Source: Chryseosolibacter histidinae (GTDB lineage: Bacteria; Bacteroidota; Bacteroidia; Cytophagales; Cyclobacteriaceae). From it: a stretch of 64,000 bases of DNA. Under the pieces are notes generated by a model. That model was given only the letters and a program-made list of their open reading frames with translations. It was not told where the DNA came from and did no database searches. The stretch is taken from assembly GCF_018598225.1 (NCBI RefSeq), contig NZ_JAHESF010000036.1, positions 1-64,000 on the forward strand, given 5' to 3'. Positions 23,242 through 52,563 of the stretch are shown one piece after another. The stretch's first letter is position 1. Every line of letters starts with the position of its first letter. Position numbers and translations under genes: made by a program.

Positions 23242-23374
23242 AGTCCATGGTCCATAGTCGATAGTCCATGGCCCGGATAGTGTTTAATCGAGTACGCTAC
23301 CCACTTTGACTTAGTACTCCTCACTGATTCATGTGGTGCTCTGCCATGGACTATGGACCATCGACTATGGACTT
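23242..23374. repeat. Inverted GGACTATGGACC island
   Basis: Left arm 23242-23272 (gtccatggtccatagtcg, then atagtccatgg) and right arm 23343-23374 (ccatggactatggacca, then tcgactatggac) are inverted copies separated by about 70 bp. The same vocabulary appears at 12369, 32543, 52343, 52434, 55906, 56385 and 56447. Confidence 0.85.
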
Positions 23375-23429
23375 ATTCTCAGAATTTTTTCTTAACTTAC
23401 ATAAGCAGTCTTTTTAACCATCCCCCCAC

Positions 23430-32407: not shown

Positions 32408-32712
32408 ATTTTGATCTTAAAAACCCATCCATTTTATGGACGAAAGCCCAAAATTACTCATCCGAAACCGATTAAGCTAACACTTATTAGGATGAATGTG
32501 TCCATCGCTCCCATTACCATTCCCTTCCCACTCCTGCGCGCAAGTCCACAGTCCACGGTCCACAGTCCACTGCCGTGCAGCGTGGTGCAACTAATCGTAC
32601 TTCGTATCCCGACAACCCTCCCGACGTACCTCGTACTTCGTACCCCGTACCTTTACACTTCTCCCTTCGCCCGCCGTAGCTTTAGCGAAGGAGGGTTCTT
32701 ATCTTGCTCCCC
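32408..32712. repeat. Intergenic region with two repeat vocabularies
   Basis: The 305-bp gap between the divergent icmF and ceramidase-like genes. It holds GTCCACAGTCCACGGTCC words (32543-32570), then CGTACTTCGTACCCCGTACC words (about 32595-32655), then a short stretch before the ATG at 32713. No ORF is supported. Confidence 0.65.
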
Positions 32713-34071
32713 ATGTTCCTTAAAAAACTCGCCCGCTTTATTCTCATCACCCTCGTGGCATTGATTGCAACGCTTGTCATCTTCCTCGCTTTCTCGCTCG
32801 CGCCTGTTGACCGCACTCCGGCCCAGGAAGAGGAATATTATCGTGTAATGAAGCAGGACCTTGATTCACTTCGTAATGTGGTGATACCAAAAGCCACTGA
32901 AGGTTTTTCAGTAGGTTATGCCAAAGTGAACCTGACCCCTTCGTCGCCGGTGCCGCTGGCGGGTTACGGAAACCGGAGGGGCAAGCCGTTCACCGAAGTG
33001 CATGATTCCATTTATGTACGCGCCATGGTCATCGGCAATGGCGCACAGCGCGTAGCCGTTGTCAGCGCTGACCTGCTGCTGATCCCGCCCGCGGTAAATG
33101 AACAATTGAAGAACAGACTCGCCGTGGTAGGTTTCAGTCCCGATCAGGTTTACCTCGGTGCCACGCATACGCACAACAGCATCGGCAGCTGGGGCAAGGG
33201 AGCAGCGCGTTTTATCTATGGACCTTACCAGGATGAGATTGTCAATTTTATCACCGATAAGATCGTGGCCTGTGTTGAGAAGGCATCAGAAAATATAGTG
33301 GCGGCATCGTTACGCACAGGGGCAATACCCGTAGCCCAGGCGGTGAGCAATCGCCTGCTGAAGGGCGGTCCAGAAGATTCATTGCTCCGGGTGATGGAAG
33401 TACGCCGCAACGATAGCAGCAAACTTCTGCTCATGAGCTACACAGCACACGCCACATGCCTGTACTCGAAAGACCTCGCGCTCTCCCGCGATTACCCCGG
33501 CCCGCTGGTAGATACCCTCGAAGCGCAGGGTTACGACTTCGCTATGTTCATGGCCGGCGCGGTGGGAAGTCACAAGTGTACACCACCCGAGTACGGATGG
33601 AATTGTATGGACTGGATGGCCGGTGAGCTGTCGCAGGCATTTCTGTCGCAGCGCCATCAGCTGAAAGCGGTACACGATTCAACCCTTTTCATGCTGCGTG
33701 TACCCTTGCTGTTGAGCGATCCGCAAGTGAAGATCACACCCGATTGGAAGATCCGCCCGTGGTTATTCCGCGCTGCCCTCGGAGAATATCCTGTGTCGCT
33801 CACCGCCCTTCGCATCGGCGACATCATGATGCTGGGCACACCCTGCGATTTTTCCGGTGAGTTCAACTTTGCGCTGGACCCCATCGCCTCCAAAAGAGGT
33901 TTACAGATCATGGTGACAAGTTTCAACGGAGGTTATATTGGTTATGTCACGCCCGGCAAATACTATGACCGTAAATATTTCGAAACGCAGCTGATGAACT
34001 GGTACGCTCCGGGTACGGGAGAGTATATGGAAGAGTGTATGGAGCAATTGGTGGAGATTGTCGATAAATAA
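32713..34071 (+). CDS. Neutral/alkaline ceramidase-like protein
   Basis: About 452 residues from the ATG at 32713. An N-terminal membrane helix (ILITLVALIATLVIFLAF) could be a signal anchor. GYAKVNLTPSSPVPLAGYGN, VVSADLLLIPP and LGATHTHNSIGSWG match the N-terminal catalytic domain of neutral/alkaline non-lysosomal ceramidases, with histidines placed as in the zinc site (THTHNS). It is shorter than full ceramidases of about 650-700 residues and lacks their C-terminal domain, so the substrate may be another amide. A role on the host's own sphingolipids is only a guess. Confidence 0.85.
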   Translation: MFLKKLARFILITLVALIATLVIFLAFSLAPVDRTPAQEEEYYRVMKQDLDSLRNVVIPKATEGFSVGYAKVNLTPSSPVPLAGYGNRRGKPFTEVHDSIYVRAMVIGNGAQRVAVVSADLLLIPPAVNEQLKNRLAVVGFSPDQVYLGATHTHNSIGSWGKGAARFIYGPYQDEIVNFITDKIVACVEKASENIVAASLRTGAIPVAQAVSNRLLKGGPEDSLLRVMEVRRNDSSKLLLMSYTAHATCLYSKDLALSRDYPGPLVDTLEAQGYDFAMFMAGAVGSHKCTPPEYGWNCMDWMAGELSQAFLSQRHQLKAVHDSTLFMLRVPLLLSDPQVKITPDWKIRPWLFRAALGEYPVSLTALRIGDIMMLGTPCDFSGEFNFALDPIASKRGLQIMVTSFNGGYIGYVTPGKYYDRKYFETQLMNWYAPGTGEYMEECMEQLVEIVDK

Positions 34072-34083
34072 GAATGGAATGAT

Positions 34084-34122
34084 GGCGTTGCCTCGTGCCT
34101 CGGCCGGGCTATCCGCTGCAAG
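34084..34122 (+). repeat. 39-bp exact repeat, copy 1
   Basis: Begins ggcgttgcctcgtgcctcgg and ends ctatccgctgcaag. It is identical to 37410-37448. It lies 12 bp after the ceramidase-like stop; the second copy lies 20 bp after the VOC gene stop. Confidence 0.85.
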
Positions 34123-34230
34123 GGAATCACGTGCGGGACGCGAGGGGCTCACACCCCACGCTAATGTATTCCGCCCTTCCAGGGCTGCGCTTGGTTTATG
34201 ATCCAGTACATAATCGTAGCTCCTCGCCCC

Positions 34231-34306
34231 AACTAGTGCGGAAGTTTCTTCCGGCGCTTTTTAAAAATCTATTTCGTAGTATGACCTCTCCGGGAACTTA
34301 GTTCCC
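34231..34306 (+). repeat. Two-hairpin repeat, copy 1
   Basis: Hairpin 1 is GCGGAAG-ttt-CTTCCGGCGC; hairpin 2 is GGGAAC-tta-GTTCCC, about 35 bp later. Between them lies an A/T-rich stretch. One of five copies, all on this strand. Confidence 0.85.
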
Positions 34307-34381
34307 CGACCGTTTTCACGTAAATTCACTACCTTCATCTCGTCTGAGATCATCTTGACCCCACTCAAAAAAAAAGGCCCC

Positions 34382-35806
34382 ATGAACCGGAACTTCTATC
34401 GCTTAAGCATCTTCGTTACCGCGCTCTACATTGCCATCACTTTTTTTCAGGCCATCATTCAATCGCGGCAAGGCCTGAAAATGTTATACCTCAAGGCATT
34501 TGTGCCGTGGTTCTTTCTAGCGGTCATTATGAATTTTGCTGGCTCGGTCATTCTTGCGCGCTATTACCAGCACAAAAAATACAAAGCTGCTTTTTCAACG
34601 GTGGTGGCTGTAGCCATCATATCCATTTTTTATTTTATCGTTGCATATCATGTAGTCACTGGCAATGCGCTGGCCGCCCATTATACTGCAGCCTACCAGT
34701 TGATGCTGCTCGCGGCCATGGCCCATGCGATAGTTCTTGTATTTTCAAAGGCCAGGGAAAGAATCTGGTTAAAAGCAGCCGGTATGTTCGGGCTTATTCT
34801 CGCAGTGACCCAACTTTCATTTTTTTGGGCCATTATGAGCTCGCAATCGTTTCAGCTTAGGCATACGTTGGGAGAAGTGCAACAATGGGTAGCGGTGGTG
34901 GGTAGTTTGGGCCTGGTGCTATACATCAAGAATTTCCGGGACGAACTCAATGCCATGGAAACGGAAAAAAGCGAGGTTACCCCGTACCTGCTTTCCAACA
35001 CGGTAACGGTCTTCACCATGATGGTGGTTTTTGCAGCAACCCTTTTTCTTAGCTTCAATCTGGCAACCGATAAGCGCAAGGCCAGGCTGGCGCAGAACAG
35101 GCCTGCCTCTCCCGAAGCCGAGCGGTTAGCGCTACGGTTTGAAGCCAGGGTCTATGTAAATGCCCAGGGCGATACATTACCTTACCGGCTGATGAAGCCA
35201 TTGAATTATGATCCCCTGCAAAAATATCCGCTCATGGTGTGCCTGCATCACGGTGGAGCACATGGAACAGATAATGTCATCCAGGTCGAAGGCGGCGGCT
35301 ATGCGCAGGTATTGTCAGACGACGCATACAGAGCAAAGTATCCCGCATTTATATTTGTTCCGCAATGCCCGGTAGGCTCCTCGTGGGGTGGTATAACCCA
35401 GCTTCCGGAAATAATGCCGTTGGTAATTGAAGCCATGGCAACGCTGGAGAAAGAATTTTCCATCGATGAAAAACGGCGTTATGTTGCGGGCATTTCCGGT
35501 GGTGGTTTCGGATCATGGCATTTTATCGCAAAGCACCCTGAGATGTTTGCCGCGGCCATACCTATCTGCGGTGGTGCTGATCCTTCACTTGCCAAAAATG
35601 TTGTTAACGTGCCGGTGTGGGCATTTCACGGTGACCAGGATCAAAATGTGCCGGTAGGGTTTTCACGTGATATGATCAATGCAATGAGGGATGCCGGCGG
35701 CAATCCAAAATACACGGAATTTCCAGGCGAAGGTCATAACATATGGGAAAGCGTCATCCAAACACCAGGTGTACTGGACTGGCTTTTTGAGCAGAAGCGT
35801 AAGTAA
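34382..35806 (+). CDS. Membrane domain fused to an alpha/beta hydrolase
   Basis: About 474 residues. Residues 1-230 hold six or seven membrane helices; the rest is an extracytoplasmic alpha/beta hydrolase of the esterase/PHB-depolymerase type. It has the oxyanion-side segment PLMVCLHHGGAHGTDN, nucleophile Ser372 in AGISGGGFG, acid in HGDQDQNVPVG and His in FPGEGHNIWES. ATG at 34382 chosen; a TTG nine codons upstream is open. The substrate is unknown. The fusion to a polytopic domain is uncommon for this hydrolase type as far as I know. Confidence 0.85.
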   Translation: MNRNFYRLSIFVTALYIAITFFQAIIQSRQGLKMLYLKAFVPWFFLAVIMNFAGSVILARYYQHKKYKAAFSTVVAVAIISIFYFIVAYHVVTGNALAAHYTAAYQLMLLAAMAHAIVLVFSKARERIWLKAAGMFGLILAVTQLSFFWAIMSSQSFQLRHTLGEVQQWVAVVGSLGLVLYIKNFRDELNAMETEKSEVTPYLLSNTVTVFTMMVVFAATLFLSFNLATDKRKARLAQNRPASPEAERLALRFEARVYVNAQGDTLPYRLMKPLNYDPLQKYPLMVCLHHGGAHGTDNVIQVEGGGYAQVLSDDAYRAKYPAFIFVPQCPVGSSWGGITQLPEIMPLVIEAMATLEKEFSIDEKRRYVAGISGGGFGSWHFIAKHPEMFAAAIPICGGADPSLAKNVVNVPVWAFHGDQDQNVPVGFSRDMINAMRDAGGNPKYTEFPGEGHNIWESVIQTPGVLDWLFEQKRK

Positions 35807-35830
35807 CAGAGCCATCAAATACGGCGCCTC

Positions 35831-35922
35831 AACTAGCGCGGAAGTTCCCTAGCGCGGGAGTTTCTTCCGGCGCTTTTAAAAACTACTCGGCAGCATGACC
35901 TCTCCGGGAACTTAGTTTCCCC
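35831..35922 (+). repeat. Two-hairpin repeat, copy 2
   Basis: As copy 1, with a partly doubled first hairpin (ctagcgcggaagttcc, then ctagcgcgggagtttcttcc). Together with copy 3 it forms a tandem duplication of about 140 bp that includes the shared TTTTTCTTATATTTATTGAC before the AraC gene. Confidence 0.85.
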
Positions 35923-35976
35923 ACACGCCGCTTCTACATGTAAAGCATGCATTTTTCTTATATTTATTGACTCCGC

Positions 35977-36053
35977 AACTAGCGCGGAAGTTTCTTCCGG
36001 GCGCTTAAAAAAAACTAATTCGTAGCATAACCTCGCCGGGGAACTTAGTTCCC
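35977..36053 (+). repeat. Two-hairpin repeat, copy 3
   Basis: Second member of the tandem pair upstream of the AraC gene. Ends ggggaacttagttccc. Confidence 0.85.
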
Positions 36054-36114
36054 TCACACAAAGCTTCTACCTGCGCGTGTGTTTTTCTTATATTTATTGA
36101 CCCATAGCAATGCC

Positions 36115-36924
36115 ATGAAATACTTCACCATCAAACCACCCGAACACCTCGCAGCCTATGTGCGATTTTTCTGGGTGCTTGAAGGTGAAGCGTCTTTTGC
36201 GCAGCCCTACATCCACCGTTCTATGGCCGACGGTTGTGCCGAGCTCATTTTTCACTACACAGGAATTTTTGACGAGCTGGTAGATGAACGCTCTACTGAA
36301 AGATCTTTTTCATCAGGACTTGCCGGACAGTCGCAGCAATTCAGGCGGTTCCTCATCAAACAAAACTTCGGCATCTTTGGCGTCTACTTGTACCCGTTTG
36401 CTGTTTCACAACTTTTTTCTGTCCCGGGGGTGGAAGCAAAAAACCAGATGATCGACCTGAAGACATTACTGGGAACTGGCGCAAACGAGCTCGAAGAAAA
36501 AATGATGCTGGCCATCGACAACAAGCTGCGCATAAAAATTATAACTGAGTTCCTGACGCGGAGATTGTTCAGGGTAAAGAAACAACCGCCCGGAGTTTTT
36601 GAAGCGATCAAATACATCATTCAGACCAACGGAACCACGCGGGTTGAAGATCTTGCAAACCAGAACTTTCAATCTACAAGACAGTTCGAAAGAAACTTCA
36701 AGCAGTTCTCAGGCTTCAGTCCGAAGTTGTTCTCGAGAATCATTCGTTTTCAAACGGCGCTGGGTGAATACAATAACAAAGGTAAATCGCTGACCGAGAT
36801 TGCCTACGCATGCGGGTATTACGATCAGTCACATTTCATACAGGATTTTAAAGAATTCTCTGGTCTCAACCCTAAAGCCTATTTTTCAGGAAAGACCGAA
36901 GGCACCGAATGGCGCGACAGTTAA
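36115..36924 (+). CDS. AraC-family transcription regulator
   Basis: 269 residues from the ATG at 36115 (MKYFTIKPPEHLAAYVRFFW). The N-terminal domain resembles the DUF6597 type found before AraC helix-turn-helix domains; the C-terminal two-helix-turn-helix spans about 165-260 (TNGTTRVEDLANQNFQSTRQ, GKSLTEIAYACGYYDQSHF). The upstream 140 bp is a tandem duplication with a repeated A/T-rich promoter-like segment. Targets are unknown; the VOC gene 78 bp downstream is the nearest candidate. Confidence 0.9.
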   Translation: MKYFTIKPPEHLAAYVRFFWVLEGEASFAQPYIHRSMADGCAELIFHYTGIFDELVDERSTERSFSSGLAGQSQQFRRFLIKQNFGIFGVYLYPFAVSQLFSVPGVEAKNQMIDLKTLLGTGANELEEKMMLAIDNKLRIKIITEFLTRRLFRVKKQPPGVFEAIKYIIQTNGTTRVEDLANQNFQSTRQFERNFKQFSGFSPKLFSRIIRFQTALGEYNNKGKSLTEIAYACGYYDQSHFIQDFKEFSGLNPKAYFSGKTEGTEWRDS

Positions 36925-37002
36925 AGATGTCGGGTTTTTCCAATTTTCTGATTTCGTCGCATTACACTTTTGTGCATCGTTAACATTTAACTCCAAAGAA
37001 AG

Positions 37003-37389
37003 ATGAAACTGCCAAAAGCACATCAAGTAGTAATGCCGTATCTCATGCTCAACGGTGCATTGAAATTTATCGACTTTGTAAAAACCGTGTTCAATGCCGA
37101 GCTCACCACCAACATGCACAGGCTGCGTGAAGATGGCGCAACTGTAATGCACTCGGAAGTGACTATCGGCGGAAGCACCATCATGTTCTCCGATGCCTCA
37201 GCGCAATGGCCCGAGCAGACCGCTAACCTGTTTGTATATGTTGAGAGTGCCGACGACACCTATAAAAAAGCGATCGCTTCCGGCGCCATCACCACCATGG
37301 AGCTGAGCAACCAGAGCTACGGACGCACCTGTGGTGTAACCGATCCGTTTGGAAATGTGTGGTGGATCACGTCGATCAACAAAGCATAG
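37003..37389 (+). CDS. VOC-family protein, PhnB-like
   Basis: 128 residues of the vicinal-oxygen-chelate/glyoxalase fold: PYLMLNGALKFIDFVKTVFN at the start, HSEVTIGGSTIMFSDA in the middle, TCGVTDPFGNVWWITS at the end. These segments are typical of PhnB-like proteins of unknown reaction. Several metal-ligand positions of true glyoxalases are not evident. Follows the AraC gene on the same strand. Confidence 0.9.
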   Translation: MKLPKAHQVVMPYLMLNGALKFIDFVKTVFNAELTTNMHRLREDGATVMHSEVTIGGSTIMFSDASAQWPEQTANLFVYVESADDTYKKAIASGAITTMELSNQSYGRTCGVTDPFGNVWWITSINKA

Positions 37390-37912
37390 TGACACAACAC
37401 AAATGCCTGGGCGTTGCCTCGTGCCTCGGCCGGGCTATCCGCTGCAAGTCCTCCCCCGCGCACAACCCCCGCGGTCCGGGCTTTCCGCTGCTATCCCTAA
37501 CGCTGGGGGCTTCGATTTGCGACGAACCACCCTTTGAGGGTTTAAAACCCTCAAAGGGTTGAGATGCGTAGGGTGGACCTTGGAACTGTACACCTTTTTT
37601 AAAATTTTCATTTTTGGTGTACAAACTATTGCGAAATCCCCGGTCTCATTTGGGGAATAATACCGGTATTAATGCTTCATAATACTGACAATACAGCTAC
37701 GATACAGCTACCATATACCTACTGGCAGAAAAATCAGGTGTGCCGTAAATTTGTCAGCGGCAAAACGAGGCCGTTTTCGCATATTTTATTTCAGGGCAAG
37801 ACCGCTTCTCAACTCCAGAAAGGAGAATTGCCAAATTAGATAATCAACCCTTTGAGGGGTTCTAAACCCTCAAAGGGTTGTTGAGAACTCCGACACAAAA
37901 CGCTTCCGCGGG
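37390..37912. repeat. 523-bp gap with several repeats
   Basis: Contains the second copy of the 39-bp repeat (37410-37448). A 15-bp-arm palindrome, ACCCTTTGAGGGTTT-a-AAACCCTCAAAGGGT, lies at 37529-37559 and its diverged copy at 37846-37879. The inverted pair TGTACACC (37587-37594) and GGTGTACA (37616-37623) is A/T-rich in between. A half-copy of the palindrome (taaaccctcaaagggttt) recurs at 39408-39424. No gene is supported upstream of 37913. Confidence 0.75.
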
Positions 37913-38290
37913 ATGATGGGCATCAAACAGGAAGCCCTCGCCGAGCTGCTGGGTGAAGGCTGGTCGCAGAAGAAGATCTCAACCATAGAAACACGCGAAG
38001 TGATAGAACCCGAGCTGCTCGAAGAGCTTGCCCACGCCCTCAAAGTACCCGCCGAAGCCATTAAGAACTTTGATGAGGATAAGGCGATCTATAATATTCA
38101 GAATAACTACGAAGGCTCGAATAACCAGGGAGCCAATAACGGAATCAATCACTATCAGTGTACCTTCAATCCCCTCGATGAAATCAAACGGCTGAATGAT
38201 GAGAACCGGAAGTTGTATGAGGCGCTGCTGAAAGAGAAGGATGAGAAGATAGCGTTGATGCAAAGGATGTTGGAGGGGAAGGGCGCTTAG
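37913..38290 (+). CDS. XRE-like regulator, 5'-truncated
   Basis: 125 residues, starting inside a helix-turn-helix: MMGIKQEALAELLGEGWSQK, then KISTIETREVIEPELLEELA. Bacteroidota relatives have about 20 further residues before this point, ending in a KRFREM-like helix. Here codons for TKRFRG still precede the ATG in frame, but further upstream the frame meets a TGA at 37853-37855 inside a palindromic repeat, and no start codon is available. The first helix is therefore lost or altered. The C-terminus is a coiled coil (LNDENRKLYEALLKEKDEKI). Possibly a decaying gene. Confidence 0.65.
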   Translation: MMGIKQEALAELLGEGWSQKKISTIETREVIEPELLEELAHALKVPAEAIKNFDEDKAIYNIQNNYEGSNNQGANNGINHYQCTFNPLDEIKRLNDENRKLYEALLKEKDEKIALMQRMLEGKGA

Positions 38291-38320
38291 TTTTCTTTAT
38301 TCGAAGTCATCTCCACGAGG

Positions 38321-38434
38321 TTCCGTCACTCAGAGCGGGCATGTGTGTCGGGTTGTGGGTAGCGAAGAATCCCCGGCTAACGGAGTGCATAACAAGATAA
38401 CAGGCTTTCAAATAACTTACGCAGTAATCCCCCC
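38321..38434. repeat. MITE-like GAAGAATCCCC repeat, copy 2
   Basis: Shares tgtgtcgggttgtgggtagc and gaagaatccccgg with the copy at 54870-54995 and is related to 16981-17116. Directly followed by two-hairpin copy 4. The rest of this 404-bp gap (38511-38694) shows nothing I can name. Confidence 0.6.
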
Positions 38435-38510
38435 AACCAGCGCGGAAGTTTCTTCCGGCGCTTTCTAAAAACTAATTCGATAGCAGATCCTCTCCGGGAA
38501 CTTAGTTCCC
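38435..38510 (+). repeat. Two-hairpin repeat, copy 4
   Basis: AACCAGCGCGGAAG-ttt-CTTCCGGCGC, then CCGGGAAC-tta-GTTCCC. Same strand as the other copies. Confidence 0.85.
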
Positions 38511-38694
38511 AAACTCACTGCAATGCCATTTCCTACACTTTCACAATCTCACCAGAATTTCTATATTGATTCGCATTCAAGTAAAGTAATACTCCTTTGT
38601 GACTAAGGCCCCGATCTCCATGAACCCAACAGCCTCTTTGGTGCACTTAGTCTGTCAAACCGCATCCCACAAAAAAAAATAACAATTAGATAAA

Positions 38695-39396
38695 ATGAGT
38701 TTCCTCAGCAAGCTATTTGGTAAAAGCCAGCCTGACAATAAAGGCCTGGATACCTCCATGGAAGAAGTTAAAAAAAGCAGGGAAGGTTACGTCAATGTCG
38801 GGCAGAGCATTTTTCCTGTCATTAAATCCGAAGACGATCCCAGGATCAAGTTGTCGATGGCTAACAATCCCGTCATGACAGAGAAAATTTCGGATGGAAT
38901 TGTTTTGTGTTATTTACTCGATATGGGCAATAACTACGAGATGATCTCGAAGAAGCACCTGACGGAATTTGGGTTGACCATTGAAGACATCAAGAAAGTT
39001 GCTATCCGTAACCTGGTTAACAAGGTCAACGCCAACTGCAAGATCCAGGTGATGGACTTTTCTGAACAGAACCCCGCGATCAAACCCTTCTATAGTATCC
39101 AGATGGATAATAACCTCAATCCGTCCATGATGCTGCTGGATGAGTTCTGGGAGACCAATGCGAAGAACATCGTAAAATCAGATACCATTGCCGTGTCCAT
39201 ACCTGCCAAGAACATCATCTTCTTTTCAGACATGAAGCTGATGGAAAGTTTCAGAACCATGCGGCCCGTTGCCAGTCAGATGTACGACGCGTCGGTTCCT
39301 GACGGGATCCAGCTCACCAAGAATACCTACATCAGGAAGAACGGCAAATGGATCCTGTTCCTGGATACCCCTGAGCAGATGGAAGAGCTGTGGTAG
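38695..39396 (+). CDS. DUF1444 (YtpQ-like) protein
   Basis: 233 residues, soluble, no signal peptide. LLDMGNNYEMISKKHLTEFG and LTIEDIKKVAIRNLVNKV resemble the DUF1444/YtpQ family, whose function is not established. It is followed 56 bp later by a small membrane protein. Confidence 0.75.
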   Translation: MSFLSKLFGKSQPDNKGLDTSMEEVKKSREGYVNVGQSIFPVIKSEDDPRIKLSMANNPVMTEKISDGIVLCYLLDMGNNYEMISKKHLTEFGLTIEDIKKVAIRNLVNKVNANCKIQVMDFSEQNPAIKPFYSIQMDNNLNPSMMLLDEFWETNAKNIVKSDTIAVSIPAKNIIFFSDMKLMESFRTMRPVASQMYDASVPDGIQLTKNTYIRKNGKWILFLDTPEQMEELW

Positions 39397-39452
39397 CATC
39401 GCAATCCTAAACCCTCAAAGGGTTTGGTGCATTATCAAGTATATTTGACGTG

Positions 39453-39974
39453 ATGAAGAAAAGTTTAGTCGTTCCATATTTTCCGGTCGTACTGGTGTTT
39501 CTTTCACCATGCCTCCTGATCTTTGGCGTTTACCTGATCTTTAGCGCAATTATATTATGGGGATTCGTTGTGATCCTGGCGGGAAGCATTTTTTTGACAA
39601 CCAGGTATGTCACCGAAATAAACCTGCGCAATAAAACTATTAAGGAGTACTTCGCTTTTTTGGGTTTTGCTTTTGGAGTTAAAGTAAGGCGATTTAAAAT
39701 GATCGACAGGATTGTCATCACCAAGGACCGTAGTGAATATGTTTCGCGGCGCGGCCCCGCCACGCTTCCTGGCGGTATACCACACAGATATGGATTGTGG
39801 GATTTTACGGCTAACCTGGTTTATGATGAAAATATTGAGTTGGAATTGATGACAAACAGAAATAAAAGAAAGCTTATAAGGGGCGTAAAAGAATTGGCTC
39901 TTTTTTTAAGAATCAAAATAGAGGATCAATCCGTGACACAACCTTACATACTAGATCCTGTTGATGTGCTCTAG
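39453..39974 (+). CDS. Small membrane protein, unknown
   Basis: About 173 residues. Two closely spaced membrane helices (PYFPVVLVFLSPCLLIFGVY and AIILWGFVVILAGSIFLTT), then a soluble domain with beta-rich pattern (VTEINLRNKTIKEYFAFLGF). This resembles bacterial PH-like or YdbT-like proteins, but I cannot assign it. ATG at 39453; a GTG one codon earlier is open. Confidence 0.65.
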   Translation: MKKSLVVPYFPVVLVFLSPCLLIFGVYLIFSAIILWGFVVILAGSIFLTTRYVTEINLRNKTIKEYFAFLGFAFGVKVRRFKMIDRIVITKDRSEYVSRRGPATLPGGIPHRYGLWDFTANLVYDENIELELMTNRNKRKLIRGVKELALFLRIKIEDQSVTQPYILDPVDVL

Positions 39975-39992
39975 TAAACAGTTAAACCCTCC

Positions 39993-40070
39993 AACTAGCG
40001 CGGAAGTTTCTTCCGGCGCTTCTAAAAAAACTGGTTCGGTAGCAAAGCCTCCACCGGGAACTTAGTTCCC
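39993..40070 (+). repeat. Two-hairpin repeat, copy 5
   Basis: AACTAGCGCGGAAG-ttt-CTTCCGGCGC and CCGGGAAC-tta-GTTCCC. It fills the 109-bp gap between two convergent genes. Confidence 0.85.
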
Positions 40071-40083
40071 TAACCACCTTCCA

Positions 40084-42483
40084 TCATTCGTACCGCAACG
40101 CCTTCACCGGGTTCGCCCGCGCAGATCTCAGTGTATGATAACTGATCGTCACCAACGCTATGATCAACGCCACAACACCACCCAGTAAAAAGAGTAGCGG
40201 ATTGATCTCCACCCGGTAAGCAAAGCTCTCCAGCCATTGCGTTAGCAGCAAATAAGTCAAGGGACTCGCCAACACAAATGACACCACAATCAGCATTGTA
40301 AAATTCTTCGACAGCAACACCGTGATCTGTGTCTCGCTTGCACCCAGCACTTTGCGGATGCCGATCTCTTTCGTTTTGCGTTCGGTGGTGATGGCGGCGA
40401 GGCCGAACAATCCCATACAGGAGATGAGAATCGCCAGGGCTGCCATGATCGTTACCACGGAGCTCATTTGCTGGTCGGAGCGATACAATACTTCAAAATG
40501 TTCGTCAAGGAACGAATGATTGAAGGGAAAACTGGTTACCTGTTGTTCCCAGATCTTCTTCACGTCAGCTACGGCTTCCTGAACGTTGGCGCCGTCGATC
40601 TTTACCGAAAGCTCGTCGTAGCCCCAATCGGGGTGCACTACCATGCTCAGCGTGTTGATCTTGTGGTGAAGCGAGTTGAAATTGAAGTCTTCCGTTACGC
40701 CAATGATGGTGCCGAGTGAATCGTTGTGATACCATGCATGACCTGCGCGTGTGCCTACGGTCTCTTTCATACCCAGTTCTTTGGCAAGCGATTCGTTAAT
40801 GACGAAAGCGAAGCCATTATCGGTAACGTTGTCTTTCGAAAAACCACGGCCCTCCTTCACTTTGATGCCATACACTTTCAGGTAATCGTAATCAACATTC
40901 ACGTTGCTGGGGGTGATGTTCATCACACCGGTGTCAGCCTTTACCTTGAAGCCCCACTGGTGAAAATTATTTCCGAGGCGCTGGCCCGAGGCGGTGACAC
41001 CGAGCACATGCCTGCTTTTTAGCAATTCATTCTTTAGCGTTTCAAACTTTTGGTTGGCTTCCTGGTTCATATCTACCAGCAACATCTGATCTTTGTCGAA
41101 GCCGATGTCTTTGTTCTTCATGTATGAAAGCTGCTGCACCACAATGAACGTGCTCACGATCATGGCCAGCGCCAGCCCGAACTGCACCACCACGAGGCTG
41201 CTCCGGAAGATGGACCTTCCTTCGCCCTTACCGCCTCCTTTCAGTACACGCGCCATGTTAAAGGATGTCATATACAACGAAGGATAGATCCCCGTAAGGA
41301 AACCAAGGCCTGCTGTGATCAGCAGCATGAGGCCGATGTTAGCCGGAGCGGAGAATAACCCCATCATCGAAAGCTGGCGACCGATCAGTCCGTTGAGCAA
41401 CGGAACGAAGAGCAGGTCCAGCACAACGGCCAGCACCAGCGCAAACAACGCCAGCAGTGTTGACTCGAAGATGAACTGTATGAACAGCTGCAGTTTTTTA
41501 GCACCCACAGATTTCCTTACGCCGATCTCCTTCCAGCGATGGGAGGCGCGGGCGGTGGTCAGGTTCATAAAGTTCACGGCCGCGATCAGCAGGATGAAGA
41601 TTCCTACAACAGTAAACACGTCCAGATACTTACCGTTGAACTTGCGGTAGTTGTTGTAATCATGTTCTATATCGGTGGAGGCAAGGTGAACCTCGTCGAG
41701 GCGCTGCAGGAACAACACGTAACGTTTGTTGATCTCGGGGTCATCCATATGCCGGCGCAGGAAGGCGGGAAACTTCTCTTCCAGAGCCTTGATGTTGACG
41801 TTGGGCTGAAGTACAAAATAGGTGTTGAGAAAATTCGATCCCCAGCGGTCGTTGAAGTCCGGCCTTTCGCGGATGCGGCTGGCCATCGACCTCAGAATGT
41901 CGAACTGCAGGTGGGAGGTTTCCGGAACATTTTTCAAGATGCCCGTGATCTTGTGGTCCTGGCCTTCGAGCCTCAGCGTATTGTTCATGGCTTCGTTCGT
42001 ATCCTTGAAGAACTTCAGCGCGGTTTCTTCTGTGATGGCGATGCAGTAGGGCTCATCCAGCAGCGTATTGCGGTCTCCCTGGAGAAGGGCAAAGTCAAAA
42101 ACGTCGAGAAAGGTGCTGTCGACCGTGGCTACGTTGTCGATCAGGAAGCGGTCTTCATTTTTTTCAACAAGCTGCTTGCTGCCGTTCCAGAAGCGTGTAT
42201 ACGTCTCCACCTCAGGAAATTCCGCTTTGATGTTTGGGCCCATGCCCGGCATGGAGAGCGCAACCTTCTGAAGGTTGGTGCCCGTGAAATTCTGCACTTC
42301 ATCCAGCCGGTAGATGTTCTGACTCTTACTATGGAAGGCGTCAAAGCTCCGTTCATCGGCAATGAACAGGTAGATGGCCATGCAGCACGCCAGCCCGATG
42401 GCAAGGCTGAAGATGTTGATGAAGGCGTACAGCGGACTTTGCCGGATATTGCGCCACGCGATGGAGAAATAGTTTTTGATCAT
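40084..42483 (-). CDS. ABC transporter permease, MacB/FtsX type
   Basis: A 799-residue permease with the same architecture as the one at 14524: N-terminal MIKNYFSIAWRNIRQSPLYA, a MacB periplasmic domain, and FtsX blocks at ARASHRWKEIGVRKSVGAKK and TTERKTKEIGIRKVLGASET. The two differ clearly in sequence, so this is an old duplication. No ATPase gene is adjacent. A large GCAGATT hairpin (42561-42640) separates it from the divergent GH88 gene. Confidence 0.92.
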   Translation of the reverse strand: MIKNYFSIAWRNIRQSPLYAFINIFSLAIGLACCMAIYLFIADERSFDAFHSKSQNIYRLDEVQNFTGTNLQKVALSMPGMGPNIKAEFPEVETYTRFWNGSKQLVEKNEDRFLIDNVATVDSTFLDVFDFALLQGDRNTLLDEPYCIAITEETALKFFKDTNEAMNNTLRLEGQDHKITGILKNVPETSHLQFDILRSMASRIRERPDFNDRWGSNFLNTYFVLQPNVNIKALEEKFPAFLRRHMDDPEINKRYVLFLQRLDEVHLASTDIEHDYNNYRKFNGKYLDVFTVVGIFILLIAAVNFMNLTTARASHRWKEIGVRKSVGAKKLQLFIQFIFESTLLALFALVLAVVLDLLFVPLLNGLIGRQLSMMGLFSAPANIGLMLLITAGLGFLTGIYPSLYMTSFNMARVLKGGGKGEGRSIFRSSLVVVQFGLALAMIVSTFIVVQQLSYMKNKDIGFDKDQMLLVDMNQEANQKFETLKNELLKSRHVLGVTASGQRLGNNFHQWGFKVKADTGVMNITPSNVNVDYDYLKVYGIKVKEGRGFSKDNVTDNGFAFVINESLAKELGMKETVGTRAGHAWYHNDSLGTIIGVTEDFNFNSLHHKINTLSMVVHPDWGYDELSVKIDGANVQEAVADVKKIWEQQVTSFPFNHSFLDEHFEVLYRSDQQMSSVVTIMAALAILISCMGLFGLAAITTERKTKEIGIRKVLGASETQITVLLSKNFTMLIVVSFVLASPLTYLLLTQWLESFAYRVEINPLLFLLGGVVALIIALVTISYHTLRSARANPVKALRYE

Positions 42484-42734: not shown

Positions 42735-44159
42735 TTGAATCAAAACCAACCTTGGAACGAAGCTAAATCCATACAGAAATACATGAAGATAGACGCTCAG
42801 GTTACACCGGAATCGCTCCGGCAGCAGATTGATCAGTTCTGGAAGGTATCAGGACAAAAAATACTGGCCATAGAGAAAAATTTTGATACGAAGCAGGGCG
42901 CCCCTGTCTTCACCGTCAACGGCAGGTACACCACCCGGGGATGGACGGAATGGACCCAAGGGTTTCAGTATGGATCGGCCATCCTTCAGTTCGATGCCAC
43001 GGGCGATACGCAGTTCCTGGAGATCGGCCGGAAGAACACCGTTGAAAAAATGGCGCCGCATATCACCCACGAAGGCGTTCACGACCATGGATTCAACAAC
43101 GCAAGCACCTATGGCAACCTGCTGAGGCTGATCCGTGAAGGCAAAGTGCAGGCCGATGAATGGGAAAAGAATTTTTACGAGCTCGCCCTGAAGAGCAGTG
43201 GCGCCGTGCAGGCCATGCGCTGGACCCCGATCAAAGACGGTGGCTATATCTATTCATTCAACGGCCCGCATTCATTGTTTGTCGATACCGTTCGGTCGTG
43301 CCGCATCGTTATGCTGAGTCATGCGCTCGGTCACATGTTGGGTGGCGAGAACGATGTGAAGATCAGCCTGCTGGAGCGTGCTGTGAAACACCTGATAGCC
43401 ACCGCGCGCTATTCCGTGTTCTATGGCGAGGGCCGCGACCATTACGACATCTCCGGCAGAACAGCCCACGAATGTATCTTCAATATCAACGATGGCAACT
43501 ACCGCTGTCCCAATTCACAGCAGGGTTTCAGTGGCTTCACCACCTGGACCCGTGGACTCGCCTGGGCCATGTGCGGTTTTGCCGAAGAGCTCGAGTTCCT
43601 CGAAACCATCAGCGCTGATGAGCTGAAGCCCCTGATCGGCAAAGACGAGCTGGTAAAAATATTGCTGAAGGCTGCCAGGGCAACGTCAGACTTTTACATC
43701 AGGAACACGGCCACCGATGGCATACCTTACTGGGATACCGGTGCCCCGGGATTGGTGAACCTCGGCGACTACCTCAACAAGACTTCAGATCCCTACAACG
43801 AACATGAGCCGGTCGATAGCTCCGCCGCTGCCATCGCCGCGCAAGGATTGCTCCGCCTCGGAAATTATTTACAGAAGAAGAACGACGCCAGTGCAGCCCA
43901 ATATACCCAGGCCGGCCTGAACGTGGCCAAGACCCTCCTAACCGAACCGTATTTATCAACCCGGACAGACCATGAAGGTTTGCTCCTCCATTCTGTCTAT
44001 CATCGTCCGAACGGCTGGGACAACATCCCCAAAGGCCGCAAAGTACCCTGCGACGAATCAAGCATGTGGGGGGATTACCATGTGCGGGAATTGATGTTGT
44101 ATATTTTGCGATTGATTAAGAAGGAGAAGTATTATACGTTCTTTAATTGTTCGAGGTAA
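42735..44159 (+). CDS. GH88-like unsaturated glucuronyl hydrolase
   Basis: 474 residues of an (alpha/alpha)6-barrel. VHDHGFNNASTYGNLLRL, QGFSGFTTWTRGLAWAMCGF and DSSAAAIAAQGLLRL match GH88, which hydrates and splits unsaturated uronic acid from oligosaccharides made by polysaccharide lyases. No signal peptide is visible, so it is probably cytoplasmic. The start is uncertain: TTG at 42735 keeps WNEAKSIQKYMKID; ATG at 42783 is the alternative. First of three genes with an Old Yellow Enzyme and an SDR. Confidence 0.85.
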   Translation: MNQNQPWNEAKSIQKYMKIDAQVTPESLRQQIDQFWKVSGQKILAIEKNFDTKQGAPVFTVNGRYTTRGWTEWTQGFQYGSAILQFDATGDTQFLEIGRKNTVEKMAPHITHEGVHDHGFNNASTYGNLLRLIREGKVQADEWEKNFYELALKSSGAVQAMRWTPIKDGGYIYSFNGPHSLFVDTVRSCRIVMLSHALGHMLGGENDVKISLLERAVKHLIATARYSVFYGEGRDHYDISGRTAHECIFNINDGNYRCPNSQQGFSGFTTWTRGLAWAMCGFAEELEFLETISADELKPLIGKDELVKILLKAARATSDFYIRNTATDGIPYWDTGAPGLVNLGDYLNKTSDPYNEHEPVDSSAAAIAAQGLLRLGNYLQKKNDASAAQYTQAGLNVAKTLLTEPYLSTRTDHEGLLLHSVYHRPNGWDNIPKGRKVPCDESSMWGDYHVRELMLYILRLIKKEKYYTFFNCSR

Positions 44160-44163
44160 AAAA

Positions 44164-44305
44164 GAAGCCAGAAGTCAGGAGCCAGGAGTCAGAAGAGTAG
44201 GAGTAATCTCGAGAGAGACTGCTACGGAAAAATAGAATTGGAATGAGGTACGCTACAAATATACTTTGCGTCCTTTGCGCTCTCTTGGCGCCCTTTGCGT
44301 GAAAT
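44164..44305. repeat. Two short word islands
   Basis: AGCCAGAAGTCAGGAGCCAGGAGTCAG-type words (44164-44195) begin 5 bp after the GH88 stop. TTTGCGTCCTTTGCGC-type words (44263-44305) end 12 bp before the next ATG; they share vocabulary with 16942-17186. Confidence 0.75.
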
Positions 44306-44317
44306 GCATTTTAACCC

Positions 44318-45769
44318 ATGAGCACCAAACATAAACCTAAATACAAACGTGTTGCCCAGCTGAAAACGGCGGGTGATCTGAAGGCCTATCTTCAATCGCT
44401 GAATGTAGACCTGCCCCTGGATGAAACGCTTATGGCACCGGAGCAATCACCGTTTCATAAAACATTTAAGCTTAACTCGGGCAGAGTTGTCGGGAACCGT
44501 TTCAGCATCCTGCCGATGGAAGGCTGGGATGGCACTGCTGACGGCCGGCCCACTGACTTTACAAAAAGGCGATGGAAAAATTTTGCCATCAGCGGTGCAA
44601 AATTATTGTGGGGATGTGAAGCAGTGGCCGTGGCCCATGAAGGACGGGCGAATCCCAACCAGTTGCTCATTCATAAGAACAACCTCGACGAATACAAGAA
44701 GCTCCTTGACCTTCTTTATGTCAATCACCAGGAGCGGTTCGGCAAAACCGACGATCTCGTGATAGGCCTTCAGCTGACTCACTCGGGCCGGTTCTGCAAG
44801 CCCAACGACAAGAAGAAAATGGAGCCGATGATCCTGTACAAGCATCCGTTTCTGAATAAAAAATTCGGACTGGGTGACGACTATCCCGTCATGACAGACG
44901 AGTACATCGACAGGCTCATCGAAAGTTTTATCAACGCCTCGGTGATGGCGCAGCAGGCGGGTTATCACTTTGTGGATATCAAACACTGCCATGGATATCT
45001 GGGTCACGAGTTCCTGAGCGCCCGCACACGCGAGGGCAGATACGGTGGCAGCTTCGAGAACCGTACGCGTTTTCTTACTTCCATCGTCGATGGTATTAAG
45101 AGCGCAGCACCGGGCCTCGAGATCTCGGTACGGCTAAGCGCTTTCGATTGGGTGCCTTTCAAAAAAGGTGACGATAGCATGGGGGTGCCGGAACAATCCA
45201 ACGGTACCGCTTACAATTATGGTTTTGGCTGCGATAGCTCAGGCACGCATCACGACCTGAGTGAGACCTTCAGGTTCCTGAAGCTTCTCGAATCGCTGGG
45301 CATTCAGCTTGTCTGCATCACAGCAGGAAGCCCTTATTACAATCCACACATTCAGCGGCCTGCACTGTTCCCGCCCTCTGACGGATATCAGCCGCCCGAA
45401 GATCCGTTTGCAGGTGTGGCGCGACAGCTCCAGGTAACCGCTGAGATCAAAAAGGCATTCCCCGGCCTGGCCATTGTGGGCTCGGCTTACTCATATTTGC
45501 AGGAGTGGCTTCCTTACGTTGGGCAAAATGTGCTCAATAATGATATGGCGGATTTTGTTGGTCTTGGCCGCATGGTGTTATCTTACCCCGAGATGCCGGA
45601 TGATATTCTGCAGGGGCGCACATTGAAACGTGATCAGATCTGCCGCACTTTCTCTGACTGTACCACGGCGCCGAGGAATGGCATGCTGTCGGGATGTTTT
45701 CCGCTGGACGACTTTTATAAAGCCCTTCCCGAAGCAGCGCAGTTGAAAGAAATTAAAGCCGAAAAATAA
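44318..45769 (+). CDS. NADH:flavin oxidoreductase, Old Yellow Enzyme family
   Basis: 483 residues of an FMN-dependent TIM barrel. [18 protein letters not shown] (N-terminal phosphate/flavin side), LQLTHSGRF and [15 protein letters not shown] with [18 protein letters not shown] are the OYE signatures, including the substrate-binding His pair. It lacks the extra C-terminal dinucleotide domains of 2,4-dienoyl-CoA reductase. One base before the SDR gene, so co-translated. With GH88 next door it may act on a keto-uronate product (inference). Confidence 0.92.
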
Positions 45770-45770
45770 T

Positions 45771-46544
45771 ATGAAGAAGGCCGCACTCATCACCGGGGGA
45801 AGCAGGGGCATCGGTTACGGCATTGCCGAAGCGCTGGCGAAAGAAGGTTTTAACCTTGCCATCAATGGCGTGAGAGAGGAGAAAGAAGCAACCGCGGCGC
45901 TCGACAATCTTAGACAACGGTACAACGCAGAGGTTATCTACTGCCAGGGAAATATCGGTGAGGCCGAAGATCGTACGCGGATCGTTGAAAAAGCTTACGC
46001 TCATTTTAGAACGATCAATGTGCTCGTCAACAATGCGGGCATTGCTCCGAAGGTTCGGAACGACATTCTCGCGCTCACCGAAGACGCGTATGACTATCTC
46101 ATGAACATCAACCTGAAAGGAACGTTCTTCCTCACGCAGGAGGTGGCCAGGCGCATGCGTGCAACCAAACAGGCCGATCCGCATGCCGAAGCGTGTATCA
46201 TCAGCATTACGTCCATTTCGGCTGAGGTAGCTTCGATCAACCGCGCTGAATATTGCCTGTCGAAAGCAGGCTTGGGTATGATGACCAAGCTGTTTGCTAC
46301 CGCACTGGGTGAGGTCAATATCCCCGTGTATGAAGTGAGGCCGGGCATCATCGAGACCGACATGACCTCGGGTGTTAAAGAAAAATACGACAAACTTATC
46401 GGCGAAGGCCTTACCCTCGAAAAACGGTGGGGGAGACCCGAAGACATCGGCCGGATCGTAGCCGCCCTCGCCCGCGGTGACATACCCTATGCCACTGGCC
46501 AGGTGATCTCACCGGATGGTGGAATGGGGGTGCGCAGGCTTTGA
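45771..46544 (+). CDS. Short-chain dehydrogenase/reductase
   Basis: 257 residues of a classical SDR: cofactor motif TGGSRGIGYGIA, NNAG in VLVNNAGIAP, catalytic Ser-Tyr-Lys in SITSISAEVASINRAEYCLS followed by KAG, and a C-terminal GQVISPDGGMGVRRL. Likely NAD(P)-dependent sugar or keto-acid reductase; its tight link to the OYE and GH88 genes suggests a uronic-acid route. GGTTGCC repeat words start 2 bp after the stop. Confidence 0.92.
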   Translation: MKKAALITGGSRGIGYGIAEALAKEGFNLAINGVREEKEATAALDNLRQRYNAEVIYCQGNIGEAEDRTRIVEKAYAHFRTINVLVNNAGIAPKVRNDILALTEDAYDYLMNINLKGTFFLTQEVARRMRATKQADPHAEACIISITSISAEVASINRAEYCLSKAGLGMMTKLFATALGEVNIPVYEVRPGIIETDMTSGVKEKYDKLIGEGLTLEKRWGRPEDIGRIVAALARGDIPYATGQVISPDGGMGVRRL

Positions 46545-46545
46545 A

Positions 46546-46713
46546 CGGTTGCCAGTTACCGGTTGCCAGGTGGCCGGTTGGGGCGCCCCAAGTGTGCCAG
46601 GAGTTGTGTTAATATTCTCTTATCCGAGACTAATTCATTAATTAGCTTCGATAGTACGCCCGTTGTCCCGTCACCTTCCTGAACTGGCAACCGGAAACTG
46701 GCAACCGGTAACC
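46546..46713. repeat. Inverted GGCAACCGGTAACTGG island
   Basis: Left arm 46546-46583 (cggttgccagttaccggttg, ccaggtggccgg) and right arm 46682-46713 (ggcaaccggaaactggcaac, cggtaacc) are inverted copies. A lone copy of the same words is at 50890-50921. Confidence 0.85.
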
Positions 46714-46791
46714 ATTTTTCCGTGTTTTTCATTCGGGGATTCGTTACCTTCCCTGCGTCTATTGATGTAGTCTAATTAAACCATCATCGTC

Positions 46792-47262
46792 ATGGCACAA
46801 TACAATCTCCAGGTCAATGGAAAAAAAGTTCAGGTGGAGGTATCTCCGGATACGCCCCTGTTGTGGGTATTGCGTGATACCCTCGGAATGACAGGAACGA
46901 AGTTCGGATGTGGCATTGCGCAGTGTGGTGCCTGTACCGTTCATCTCAACGATAATGCGGTGCGGTCATGCAGCCTCCCCGTGTCATCGGTGGGAAATAA
47001 CAAGATCACCACCATCGAAGGCTTGTCTGAGAAAGGAGACCATCCCGTACAGCTTGCCTGGGATGAAGCTGACGTTCCCCAGTGTGGCTATTGCCAGGCT
47101 GGCCAGATCATGTCTGCAGCCGCGTTGCTGAAACGCAAACCTCAGCCTACCGACCAGGATATCGATACAGCCATGGCAGGCAACATCTGCCGTTGTGGAA
47201 CCTATAAACGCATCCGTACTGCCATCCATGCAGCGGCGGCAAAGAAAGGAGGTAAATCATGA
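46792..47262 (+). CDS. (2Fe-2S) subunit of a molybdenum hydroxylase (IorA-like)
   Basis: 156 residues carrying two [2Fe-2S] clusters. Plant-ferredoxin cluster ligands are C40, C45, C48 and C60 ([14 protein letters not shown]); the second cluster uses C98, C101, C133 and C135 ([18 protein letters not shown]). It passes electrons from the molybdenum subunit to an external acceptor. The stop overlaps the next start (ATGA), and a strong Shine-Dalgarno AAAGGAGGT lies in its own last codons. Confidence 0.96.
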
Positions 47263-49403
47263 GCGCTTCAATCGTTTCAAGAAGATCATTCCTCAAGGTC
47301 AGCACACTGGCTGGCGGAGGACTTATGCTGGCCTTCAACGGCCTTGACAAAGTGCTGGCAGGTACAGTAGCAGAAGATGTGTTGTTTGCGCCAAATGCTT
47401 ATATCAAGATCGCTTCCAATGGCATTGTCACATTGATGGCGACCAACCCGGAGATCGGCCAGGGCGTTAAGACTTCGCTGCCGATGCTGGTGGCCGAAGA
47501 GCTCGATGTAGATTGGCAAAAGGTAGTGATCGAACAAGCTCCGCTGGACACCGTGAAGTTCAGCCGGCAGTCGGCGGGCGGCAGTGGCTCGGTCAGAAGT
47601 AGTTGGGAACCGTTCCGCAAAGCAGGAGCCGCCGCCAGAAAAATGCTGGTGGATGCAGCAGCCCAGACGTGGAATGTAAGTCCCGATGAATGCGTCACCG
47701 AAAACGGTTGGGTGATCCATAAGCCCTCCGGTAAAAAGCTTGAGTATGGCGCGCTCGCCTCGAAGGCATCCGGCATGACAGTTCCCACAGAAGTAACACT
47801 CAAGGATCCGAAAGACTACAAGCTCATCGGCAAACGCATCCCCAACGTAGACAATAAAAAGATCGCCACAGGCAAGCAGCCTTTCGGCATTGATACAAAG
47901 AGAGAAGGCATGCTGTATGTGATGGTGGCACGTCCCGCGGCGTTTGGCAAAAAGCTGAAGTCGTTCGATGATACAGCAGCCAGGGCGTTGCCGGGTGTGA
48001 AGAACGTTGTCAGCTTCGATAACAAGATCGCGGTGCTGGCCACCTCCACTTGGGAAGCGAAGAAAGGTCGCGATGCGTTGAAGATCGAATGGGAAGATGA
48101 AGTTGCCCTCGAAAGCACGGCTGAGCACCAGGAAAATCTGAAGAAGCTTACCCAGCAAAAGCATGAGATACCCAAACGTACCGATGGCGATGCAGAGCAG
48201 GCGCTGGCAGGTGCAAAGAAAGTGCTGGAGAGCGTTTTCGAAGCGCCCTTCCTGCCGCACGCACCCCTGGAACCGATGAACTTTTTTGCTGACGTACGCG
48301 ACGACAAGGTGGAGCTGTATGGTTCTACCCAGGTGCCGGCGCGGGTCAGGGCAGAAGTGGCAAAAGCATTGAACATTGGTGAAGATAAGATCAGTGTGGG
48401 TGTGTCGCGCATCGGTGGAGGCTTTGGTCGGCGCCTTCAGGCCGATTACGCCATCGAAGCCGCGAAGATCTCACAACTTGCAAAATCGCCCGTGCAGGTG
48501 ATGTGGACCCGTGAAGATGATATGCAGGGTGGATATTACCGTCCTGCGGGCATGTACCGATATCGCGCGGCCATTGATCAGAACAATGAGCTTTCCGCAT
48601 GGTATCTCGTGGCGTCGTCAGTGAACCAGGACAACGCATCGCGACAGGATAATTTCCCCGCCGGTGCCATTCCTAACTTCAGGGTTGACAGTCACAGGCT
48701 GAACTCTGCTATATCAACAGGGCCGTGGCGTGCGCCCAATCATAACTTCCTCGCATTCTCCGAAGAAAGCTTCTTGGACGAGATCGCCACCGAGCTGAAG
48801 AAAGATACCGTGGCGTTCAGGCTCGAGCTGCTGGATCGCGCCAAGAGCAATCCTGCCGGCAAGCTTACTTATGATGTAGACCGTTATAAAGCTGTGATCA
48901 AACTGGCTGCAGAAATGGGCAAGTGGGGCACACCAGCAGGCAAAGGTATCTTTAAAGGTTTTGCTTCACACTTTTCATTCGGGAGTTATGCTGCCCAGGT
49001 GGCGGAGATCTCCATCACGGGTGGAAAGCTGAAAGTGCACAAGATCTATTGTGCCATCGATTGTGGAAGGGTGATCAACCTCAGCGGTGCAGAAACGCAG
49101 GTGGAAGGAGGTATCATCGATGGCCTGGGCCACGCATTATACGGTGAGCTGCTCTTCGAAAAAGGAGCTACCGTTCAGAAGAACTTCAATACTTACAAGC
49201 TGATCCGCATGCCCGATGCTCCGGCCATTGAAGTGAGGTTTATCGACAGCAATGAAAATCCGCAAGGTCTTGGAGAGCCAGGACTTCCACCGGTAGCTGC
49301 TGCTGTGAACAACGCTATTTTCAATGCTACGGGTCAACGCATCAGAAGACTGCCCTTGTCACTGGCAACGCTGCTCAGCGATCAGGTAGACAGGAACAGG
49401 TAA
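47259..49403 (+). CDS. Molybdopterin-binding subunit, Tat-exported (IorB-like)
   Basis: 714 residues of the xanthine dehydrogenase/aldehyde oxidase family. The N-terminus has a twin-arginine signal ([18 protein letters not shown]), so the heterodimer is likely moved folded to the periplasm. [16 protein letters not shown] and [10 protein letters not shown] lie at the cofactor site; [19 protein letters not shown] contains the conserved catalytic Glu. Closest type is isoquinoline 1-oxidoreductase beta; the real substrate (an aldehyde or N-heterocycle) is not known. No cytochrome c subunit gene follows. Confidence 0.95.
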
Positions 49404-52319: not shown

Positions 52320-52521
<202 letters not shown>

Positions 52522-52563
52522 TGATACATGTATGTATTGTGAAACCATGACACCTAATAACCT

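Follow-up and report, generated by a model that had tools for sequence, protein, structure and literature searches.

Introduction

REPINs are paired palindromes of the repetitive extragenic palindromic (REP) type, which occur in tandem clusters next to the genes of REP-associated tyrosine transposases (RAYTs) and as arrays of uniform orientation (Bertels and Rainey 2011, PMC3116915). Among these transposases, TnpAREP subclass 2.6 occurs mostly in Bacteroidetes, with a median of 82 residues between the HuH motif and the Y and a mean size of 179, and its genes are flanked by atypical structures that lack GT[AG]G, further copies of which lie at other genomic sites (Quentin et al. 2018, PMC6006769). 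Other TnpAREP proteins cut REP sequences in a strand-specific manner in vitro, and one of these proteins still cuts, although less well, when GTAG is replaced by CTAG (PMC8266576). In this work, we analyzed a stretch of 64,000 nucleotides of Chryseosolibacter histidinae (hereafter the window, on contig NZ_JAHESF010000036.1, or C52, of an 8.04-Mb draft genome in 122 contigs), for which an earlier note had described five same-strand copies of a two-hairpin repeat within 6 kb. Judging from sequence analysis, it is likely (probability around 0.8) that the copies are units of a non-autonomous mobile repeat of the REP type, moved by a RAYT of the type encoded on contig C63 of the same genome.

The resemblance to REPINs and to bacterial interspersed mosaic elements (BIMEs; PMC3116915) lies in the extragenic placement, the two palindromes per replicating unit, the clusters beside a RAYT gene, the tandem clusters that include flanks, and the clusters in one orientation. 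In contrast, the two palindromes of the host unit differ in sequence and each folds alone, exact single palindromes are absent outside the units, CT[AGC]G stands at the foot in place of GT[AG]G, and there are about 50 copies instead of hundreds. The system also recalls IS200/IS605 and their miniature derivatives by its hairpins at both ends, its single-strand HuH enzyme, and its probably strand-specific moves (PMC8266576 and general knowledge). Unlike these insertion sequences, the units of around 85 bp contain no transposase gene, and the C63 RAYT does not have a matching unit on both sides. The one IS200-type gene of the host genome (on contig C36) has other hairpins alongside.

Structure of the repeat unit

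We built a covariance model from 26 copies and used it to scan the host genome. The full list has 53 matches, of which the 49 with E < 1e-7 were counted as full-length units, leaving out four weak matches (E from 6e-4 to 0.42). A blastn search of the host genome gave 58 pieces, with several pieces per unit. In the window, the model recovered five full units, all on the + strand (Table 1), and a single further match at E 0.78. Hairpin 1, allowing up to 3 mismatches, occurs five times in the window when shuffled sequences lead one to expect 0.06, and hairpin 2 occurs solely at the same five places (1.31 expected). The earlier note was thus right on the five same-strand copies and on the absence of others elsewhere in the 64-kb window. 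Its copy starts need one correction, since position 35831 is the start of a cut-off piece and the full copy begins at 35845.

The unit of around 85 bp comprises a 5' foot, hairpin 1, a linker of around 40 bp, and hairpin 2. Hairpin 1 has the core CGGAAGTTTCTTCCG (CGGAAG-TTT-CTTCCG) within an outer GCGC stem. Hairpin 2 is GGGAACTTAGTTCCC in the subfamily found in the window, and its core is CGGAAGTTACTTCCG or GTGGAACTTAGTTCCAC in the other subfamilies. The foot, i.e., the four bases 5' of hairpin 1, reads CT[AGC]G in 34 of 46 copies. This count and the tree of the units, in which 9 of the 43 inner branches are supported, include 46 of the 49 units, because three were absent from the stretches extracted by then.

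Both hairpin stems are kept by compensatory changes, and the unit folds into hairpins as REP sequences do. In an alignment of 51 sequences (the 49 host units and two units from JAOUDZ010000044), there were 78 two-sided changes, whereas shuffles gave 27 and slid versions no more than 8; this alignment had been fitted to the structure, which favors such a result. This covariation supports the two-hairpin fold of the consensus, which the earlier note had proposed to check. In Rfam, no family covered the unit at or above its gathering score. The exact core palindrome CGGAAGTTNCTTCCG has 50 matches in the genome, each of which falls within one of the 49 units and has its strand. Hence, what multiplies is the two-hairpin unit and not a single palindrome. 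The degraded exceptions are the piece at 35830 and a hairpin-1 piece just ahead of the unit at position 14184 of contig C68.

Distribution of the units across the genome

The 49 units are spread over 20 contigs, which shows that the repeat is more than the local cluster initially described. There are 31 units on the + strand and 18 on the - strand, contig orientation being arbitrary. As in other REP families, the repeat is multicopy and its placement is extragenic: the units overlap just short mechanical open reading frames (ORFs, 81-156 aa) and the stretch of 259 aa by which the RAYT frame extends upstream. Searches of plasmid records found no unit. The units are clustered along the contigs, with 23 pairs of neighbors at most 10 kb apart against a mean of 2.8 in random placements, and five units in 6 kb were never reached in 2000 such placements. 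The two members of a pair have the same orientation in 15 cases and opposite orientations in 8, seven of the latter being in tight alternating arrays on contigs C63, C78, C21, and C72. Some units on other contigs alternate in orientation at spacings of 5-41 bp, with no gene in between. Copies of the same contig that are more than 10 kb apart have mixed orientations. With regard to a possible replication-strand explanation of the uniform orientation, the GC skew around the copies is low (|skew| < 0.035) and its sign does not clearly track their orientation.

The orientation of the copies had been described as independent of the strand of the genes. The window alone is insufficient for such a statement, because its five copies all lie downstream of + strand genes and only copy 5 faces a - strand gene, but the independence is clear in the whole genome. 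The gene located 5' of a copy reads into the copy's 5' end in 26 of 49 cases, and contig C68 has four + copies among - strand genes.

To characterize the spread of the repeat, we compared the copies and their flanks. Among the 21 window-type copies, identity is higher within contigs (0.79) than between contigs (0.745), with 10 of 2000 shuffles as high, and this likeness is reached by 34 of 2000 shuffles when the three tandem copies are excluded. The nearest neighbor of each of the five window copies is another window copy. The flanks are unrelated at four of the five window positions (nothing at E 1e-3), which suggests that the unit of around 85 bp moved by itself. The exception is the tandem pair formed by copies 2 and 3 (35845/35975), which have alike 3' flanks, and tandem pairs resembling it are also found on C51 and C56. 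The local spread proposed in the earlier note thus receives partial support from the mutual likeness of the window copies, but its recency does not, since local identity is only around 80% and the flanks are unrelated. The pattern of spread appears to fit a unit moving alone together with tandem duplication.

A RAYT gene beside related units

Contig C63 encodes a protein of 183 residues that matches the NCBIfam model of the REP-associated tyrosine transposase (NF047646) with 105 bits for a cut-off of 80. It is also above the cut-off of PF01797, whereas the IS200 model is below its own. This is the kind of TnpA-REP-like gene that was to be searched for according to the earlier note. Residues H60, H62, W124, and Y145 are invariant in 14 homologues, with H60, H62, and Y145 being the catalytic ones, and a profile of these homologues matches the E. 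coli TnpAREP 4er8 (E 1e-5). The motifs are NHIH (H60, H62), W124-Q, and Y145-V-H-N-N-P, and the spacing between HuH and Y is 83-85 residues. The predicted protein fits subclass 2.6, as described in PMC6006769, in its NH[LIV]H, W-Q, and Y-x-H-[QN]-N-P motifs, in spacing (83-85 vs 82), and in size (183 vs a mean of 179), with Y-V where the subclass has Y-I. The host system further shares with the subclass the Bacteroidetes host, the flanking structures without GTAG, and the additional genomic copies. The sections of that paper compared here describe no paired-hairpin unit or genome map of one.

Three related units lie upstream of the C63 RAYT gene, in the order +, -, +, the nearest being 82 bp before the start codon. 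Hence, the gene is flanked by repeats, as is typical of RAYTs, albeit on the 5' side only and by sister subfamilies of the one in the window. Outside the host, a scan for the hairpin-1 pattern in one genome per species (84,980 species) returned four contigs, two of them from Cyclobacteriaceae. In JAOUDZ010000044, a RAYT sharing 68% identity with the C63 protein has two units upstream, the closer one 44 bp away. In JAEUUG010000004, one unit is 13 bp past the end of a broken RAYT whose pieces are 71-73% identical to the C63 protein. The other two contigs are from metagenome-assembled genomes (MAGs), one of Anaerolineae (L203) and one of Bacteroidales (L204), and no RAYT was found in the 8 kb examined of each; the best E-values of the unit model are 3.7e-5 in L203 and 1.4e-4 in L204, where a single hairpin is found. 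In a family sample of 196 genomes, host included, four contain a unit match with an E-value no higher than 1e-5. Around the weaker matches of G007, G168, and G171, no RAYT was found in the 2-3 kb or so examined, and G001 and G002, the two other genomes of the host genus examined, have no unit match. The repeat is thus nearly confined to one species, and its best matches in relatives adjoin the C63-type RAYT lineage.

The earlier note had suggested control by a RAYT-like transposase. The association stands, with RAYT-adjacent units in three genomes, while we only infer mobilization itself. The note would have abandoned the idea for copies spread evenly in both orientations in a genome with no RAYT, and what we observe are clustered copies and a RAYT. 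The RAYT gene beside the related units probably spreads the repeat. Its product, a Bacteroidetes-type (subclass 2.6) nuclease of the Y1/HuH class acting on single strands, would recognize the hairpins on single-stranded DNA, cut at the edges of the unit, and pass it to new extragenic sites. Short-range moves and tandem duplication would then lead to local clusters, whose uniform orientation could result from strand-specific insertion into exposed single-stranded DNA or from duplication.

Several observations weigh against such a mobile repeat. REPs usually have more than 100 copies per genome, and here we found 49 units in a draft of 122 contigs. The GT[AG]G foot of canonical REPs and REPINs is present in 0 of 46 copies. 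The units next to the C63 RAYT are from other subfamilies and alternate in orientation, and none of the units of the window subfamily (hairpin 2 GGGAACTTAGTTCCC) is beside a RAYT in the host genome. We saw neither the excision nor the insertion of a single unit, nor any site lacking just one; for such empty sites, the genomes G001 and G002 (whose genes are about 65-77% identical to those of the host) are too distant for intergenic alignment. Finally, in a set of 39 genomes of relatives, host included, RAYT homologues are present in 23 and the unit in 2. The presence of a RAYT alone is therefore no predictor of the unit. Individual RAYTs have their own REP types.

Alternative explanations

One might explain the cluster by tandem or segmental duplication and homologous recombination alone, with no transposase active today. 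Copies 2 and 3 form a tandem pair with similar flanks, there are like pairs on C51 and C56, and resemblance is closer among local copies than among distant ones. Yet, the flanks of the other window copies have nothing in common at E 1e-3, and duplication alone does not explain the dispersal of units over 20 contigs, which makes this explanation unlikely. It is very improbable that the units are transcription terminators, or hairpins for mRNA stability, kept by selection at the ends of genes. Such a role would account for the position of all five window copies downstream of + strand genes and for the match of copy 1 to a terminator pattern at 34239, but the T run required after hairpin 1 in an intrinsic terminator is present in only one of the five window copies. 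Moreover, the gene contexts of the 49 units (29 co-directional, 10 convergent, and 10 divergent) are close to the background (160, 54, and 64), and orientation is independent of the upstream gene. Hence, the sequence does not support the idea, raised for checking in the earlier note, that the copies end transcripts.

The direct orientation of the copies, the + strand genes between them, and the lineage-specific stretch of 6 kb between the outermost ones are reminiscent of an integron-like cassette array, in which the units would be attC-type recombination sites and single genes would lie between sites of the same orientation. We regard this as hardly credible, since no integrase of the genome is above the cut-off (0 of 7 matches to TIGR02249) and the unit has two separate hairpins instead of one long attC hairpin. 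It is also at odds with the alternating units of other contigs, which have no gene between them, and with the stretches between the window copies, of which the genome contains no other large copy.

The 6-kb stretch holding the window copies

Table 1. Coordinates of the repeat units and of the surrounding features in the window
Feature	Coordinates	Strand	Remarks
Two-hairpin unit, copy 1	34229..34311	+	Hairpin 1 core 34239-34253, hairpin 2 34292-34306
Cut-off 5' piece of unit, directly ahead of copy 2	35830..35846	+	Weak blastn match (E 3.8); also read from the letters
Two-hairpin unit, copy 2	35845..35925	+	Hairpin 1 35854-35871, hairpin 2 35906-35920, one mismatch each
Two-hairpin unit, copy 3	35975..36058	+	Hairpin 1 core 35985-35999, hairpin 2 36039-36053
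Two-hairpin unit, copy 4	38433..38515	+	Hairpin 1 core 38443-38457, hairpin 2 38496-38510
Two-hairpin unit, copy 5	39991..40075	+	Hairpin 1 core 40001-40015, hairpin 2 40056-40070
6.0-kb stretch with all copies and six + strand genes	34072..40083		Lacking between these two genes in G002 and at the corresponding place in G001
Left flank, neutral ceramidase-like gene	32704..34071	+	Conserved in G002 and G001
Right flank, MacB/FtsX-type permease gene	40084..42483	-	Conserved beside the ceramidase gene in G002

The gap between the ceramidase and FtsX genes is about 233 bp in G002, compared with 6.0 kb here, and in G001 the ceramidase gene is directly followed by a homologue of the window gene at 49407-49802. 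Since the 6-kb stretch is missing in both genomes, its gain in the host species is the simpler history. A second species-specific stretch (42735-49403), with five genes and no units, is also absent there in G002 and G001. Hence, the gain of genes at this locus does not need the units. The region running from the ceramidase gene to the gene at 49407 is an insertion hotspot.

The units may simply have colonized new intergenic space. A more elaborate possibility, which we find very improbable, is that two direct units served as the ends of a single-stranded composite, so that the RAYT excised the span from hairpin 1 of one unit to hairpin 2 of another and the repeats carried the 6-kb block. The outer edges of the block do lie close to units, the last one stopping 8 bp short of the FtsX gene and the first beginning 158 bp past the ceramidase gene. 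Moreover, both same-genus genomes examined lack the block, and its units are all in one orientation. On the other hand, the second stretch (42.7-49.4 kb) is free of units and no second copy of the 6-kb block was found. The stretch had no match in phage records. On C51 (43.5-52.8 kb), gene order breaks inside the stretch holding both units, and the two sides are around 100 kb apart in G002. On C68, the G002 homologue of a small gene located between units is found at the neighboring position, but in reverse orientation. As neither is a clean insertion, the case of the window was not generalized.

Other repeats

The window and related loci have further repeats. Within the 6-kb stretch, a perfect 39-bp direct repeat (GGCGTTGCCTCGTGCC...) is found at 34084-34122 and 37410-37448, and the Rfam Acido-Lenti-1 RNA (RF01687) matches positions 34141-34186 above the cut-off. 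Weaker RF01687 matches (34.5 and 30.4 bits, for a cut-off of 37) are at positions 2936-2982 and 3592-3637 of locus L041, where they stand, oppositely oriented, to either side of the genome's IS200-type Y1 transposase gene. Because these matches bracket such a gene, the RF01687 "RNA" may in fact be a DNA palindrome linked to a transposase. Short palindromes repeated in the form AACCCTTTGAGGGTT...AACCCTCAAAGGGTT occur near window positions 37536, 37850, and 39410, with more copies elsewhere in the genome, and a low-complexity ATGGACTATGGACCATGG repeat is found at 23346-23376 and 52437-52525.

RAYTs are usually single copy. The host genome has a second RAYT type in two near-identical copies around 6 kb apart (L040 4145-4696 and 10323-10874, contig C45), beside which are the palindromes TCAGTCTTCAGACTGA and CAAGTCTGAAGACTTG. 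All five units of C51, and the one at 13773 on C98, closely follow a copy, in the same orientation, of the repeat that belongs to the other RAYT, and this preceding repeat ends with GCAGTCTTCAGACTGC or a degraded form of it, as if the two repeat families formed composites or shared insertion sites. The broken RAYT of JAEUUG010000004 (L207, around 444-1395) is interrupted by an insert in which a small ORF is enclosed by two direct repeats of around 130 bp. These carry GTTGGTGTTCTTCACCAAC or a near form, and 766,638 bases of the host genome contain 8 hairpins of this kind.

Significance

We thus describe a known kind of mobile repeat, whose novelty is that two unlike, covarying hairpins make up a fixed unit with a CT[AGC]G foot. 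Among the titles and abstract openings of open-licence papers, we found no paper naming this repeat. It provides a defined repeat-transposase pair for a little-described group of RAYTs, i.e., those of the Bacteroidetes type with no GTAG foot. The natural variants of hairpin 2, whose stems swap G-C, C-G, and A-T pairs, can be used to work out how the enzyme recognizes its target, and the locus is suited to asking whether such repeats can carry genes.

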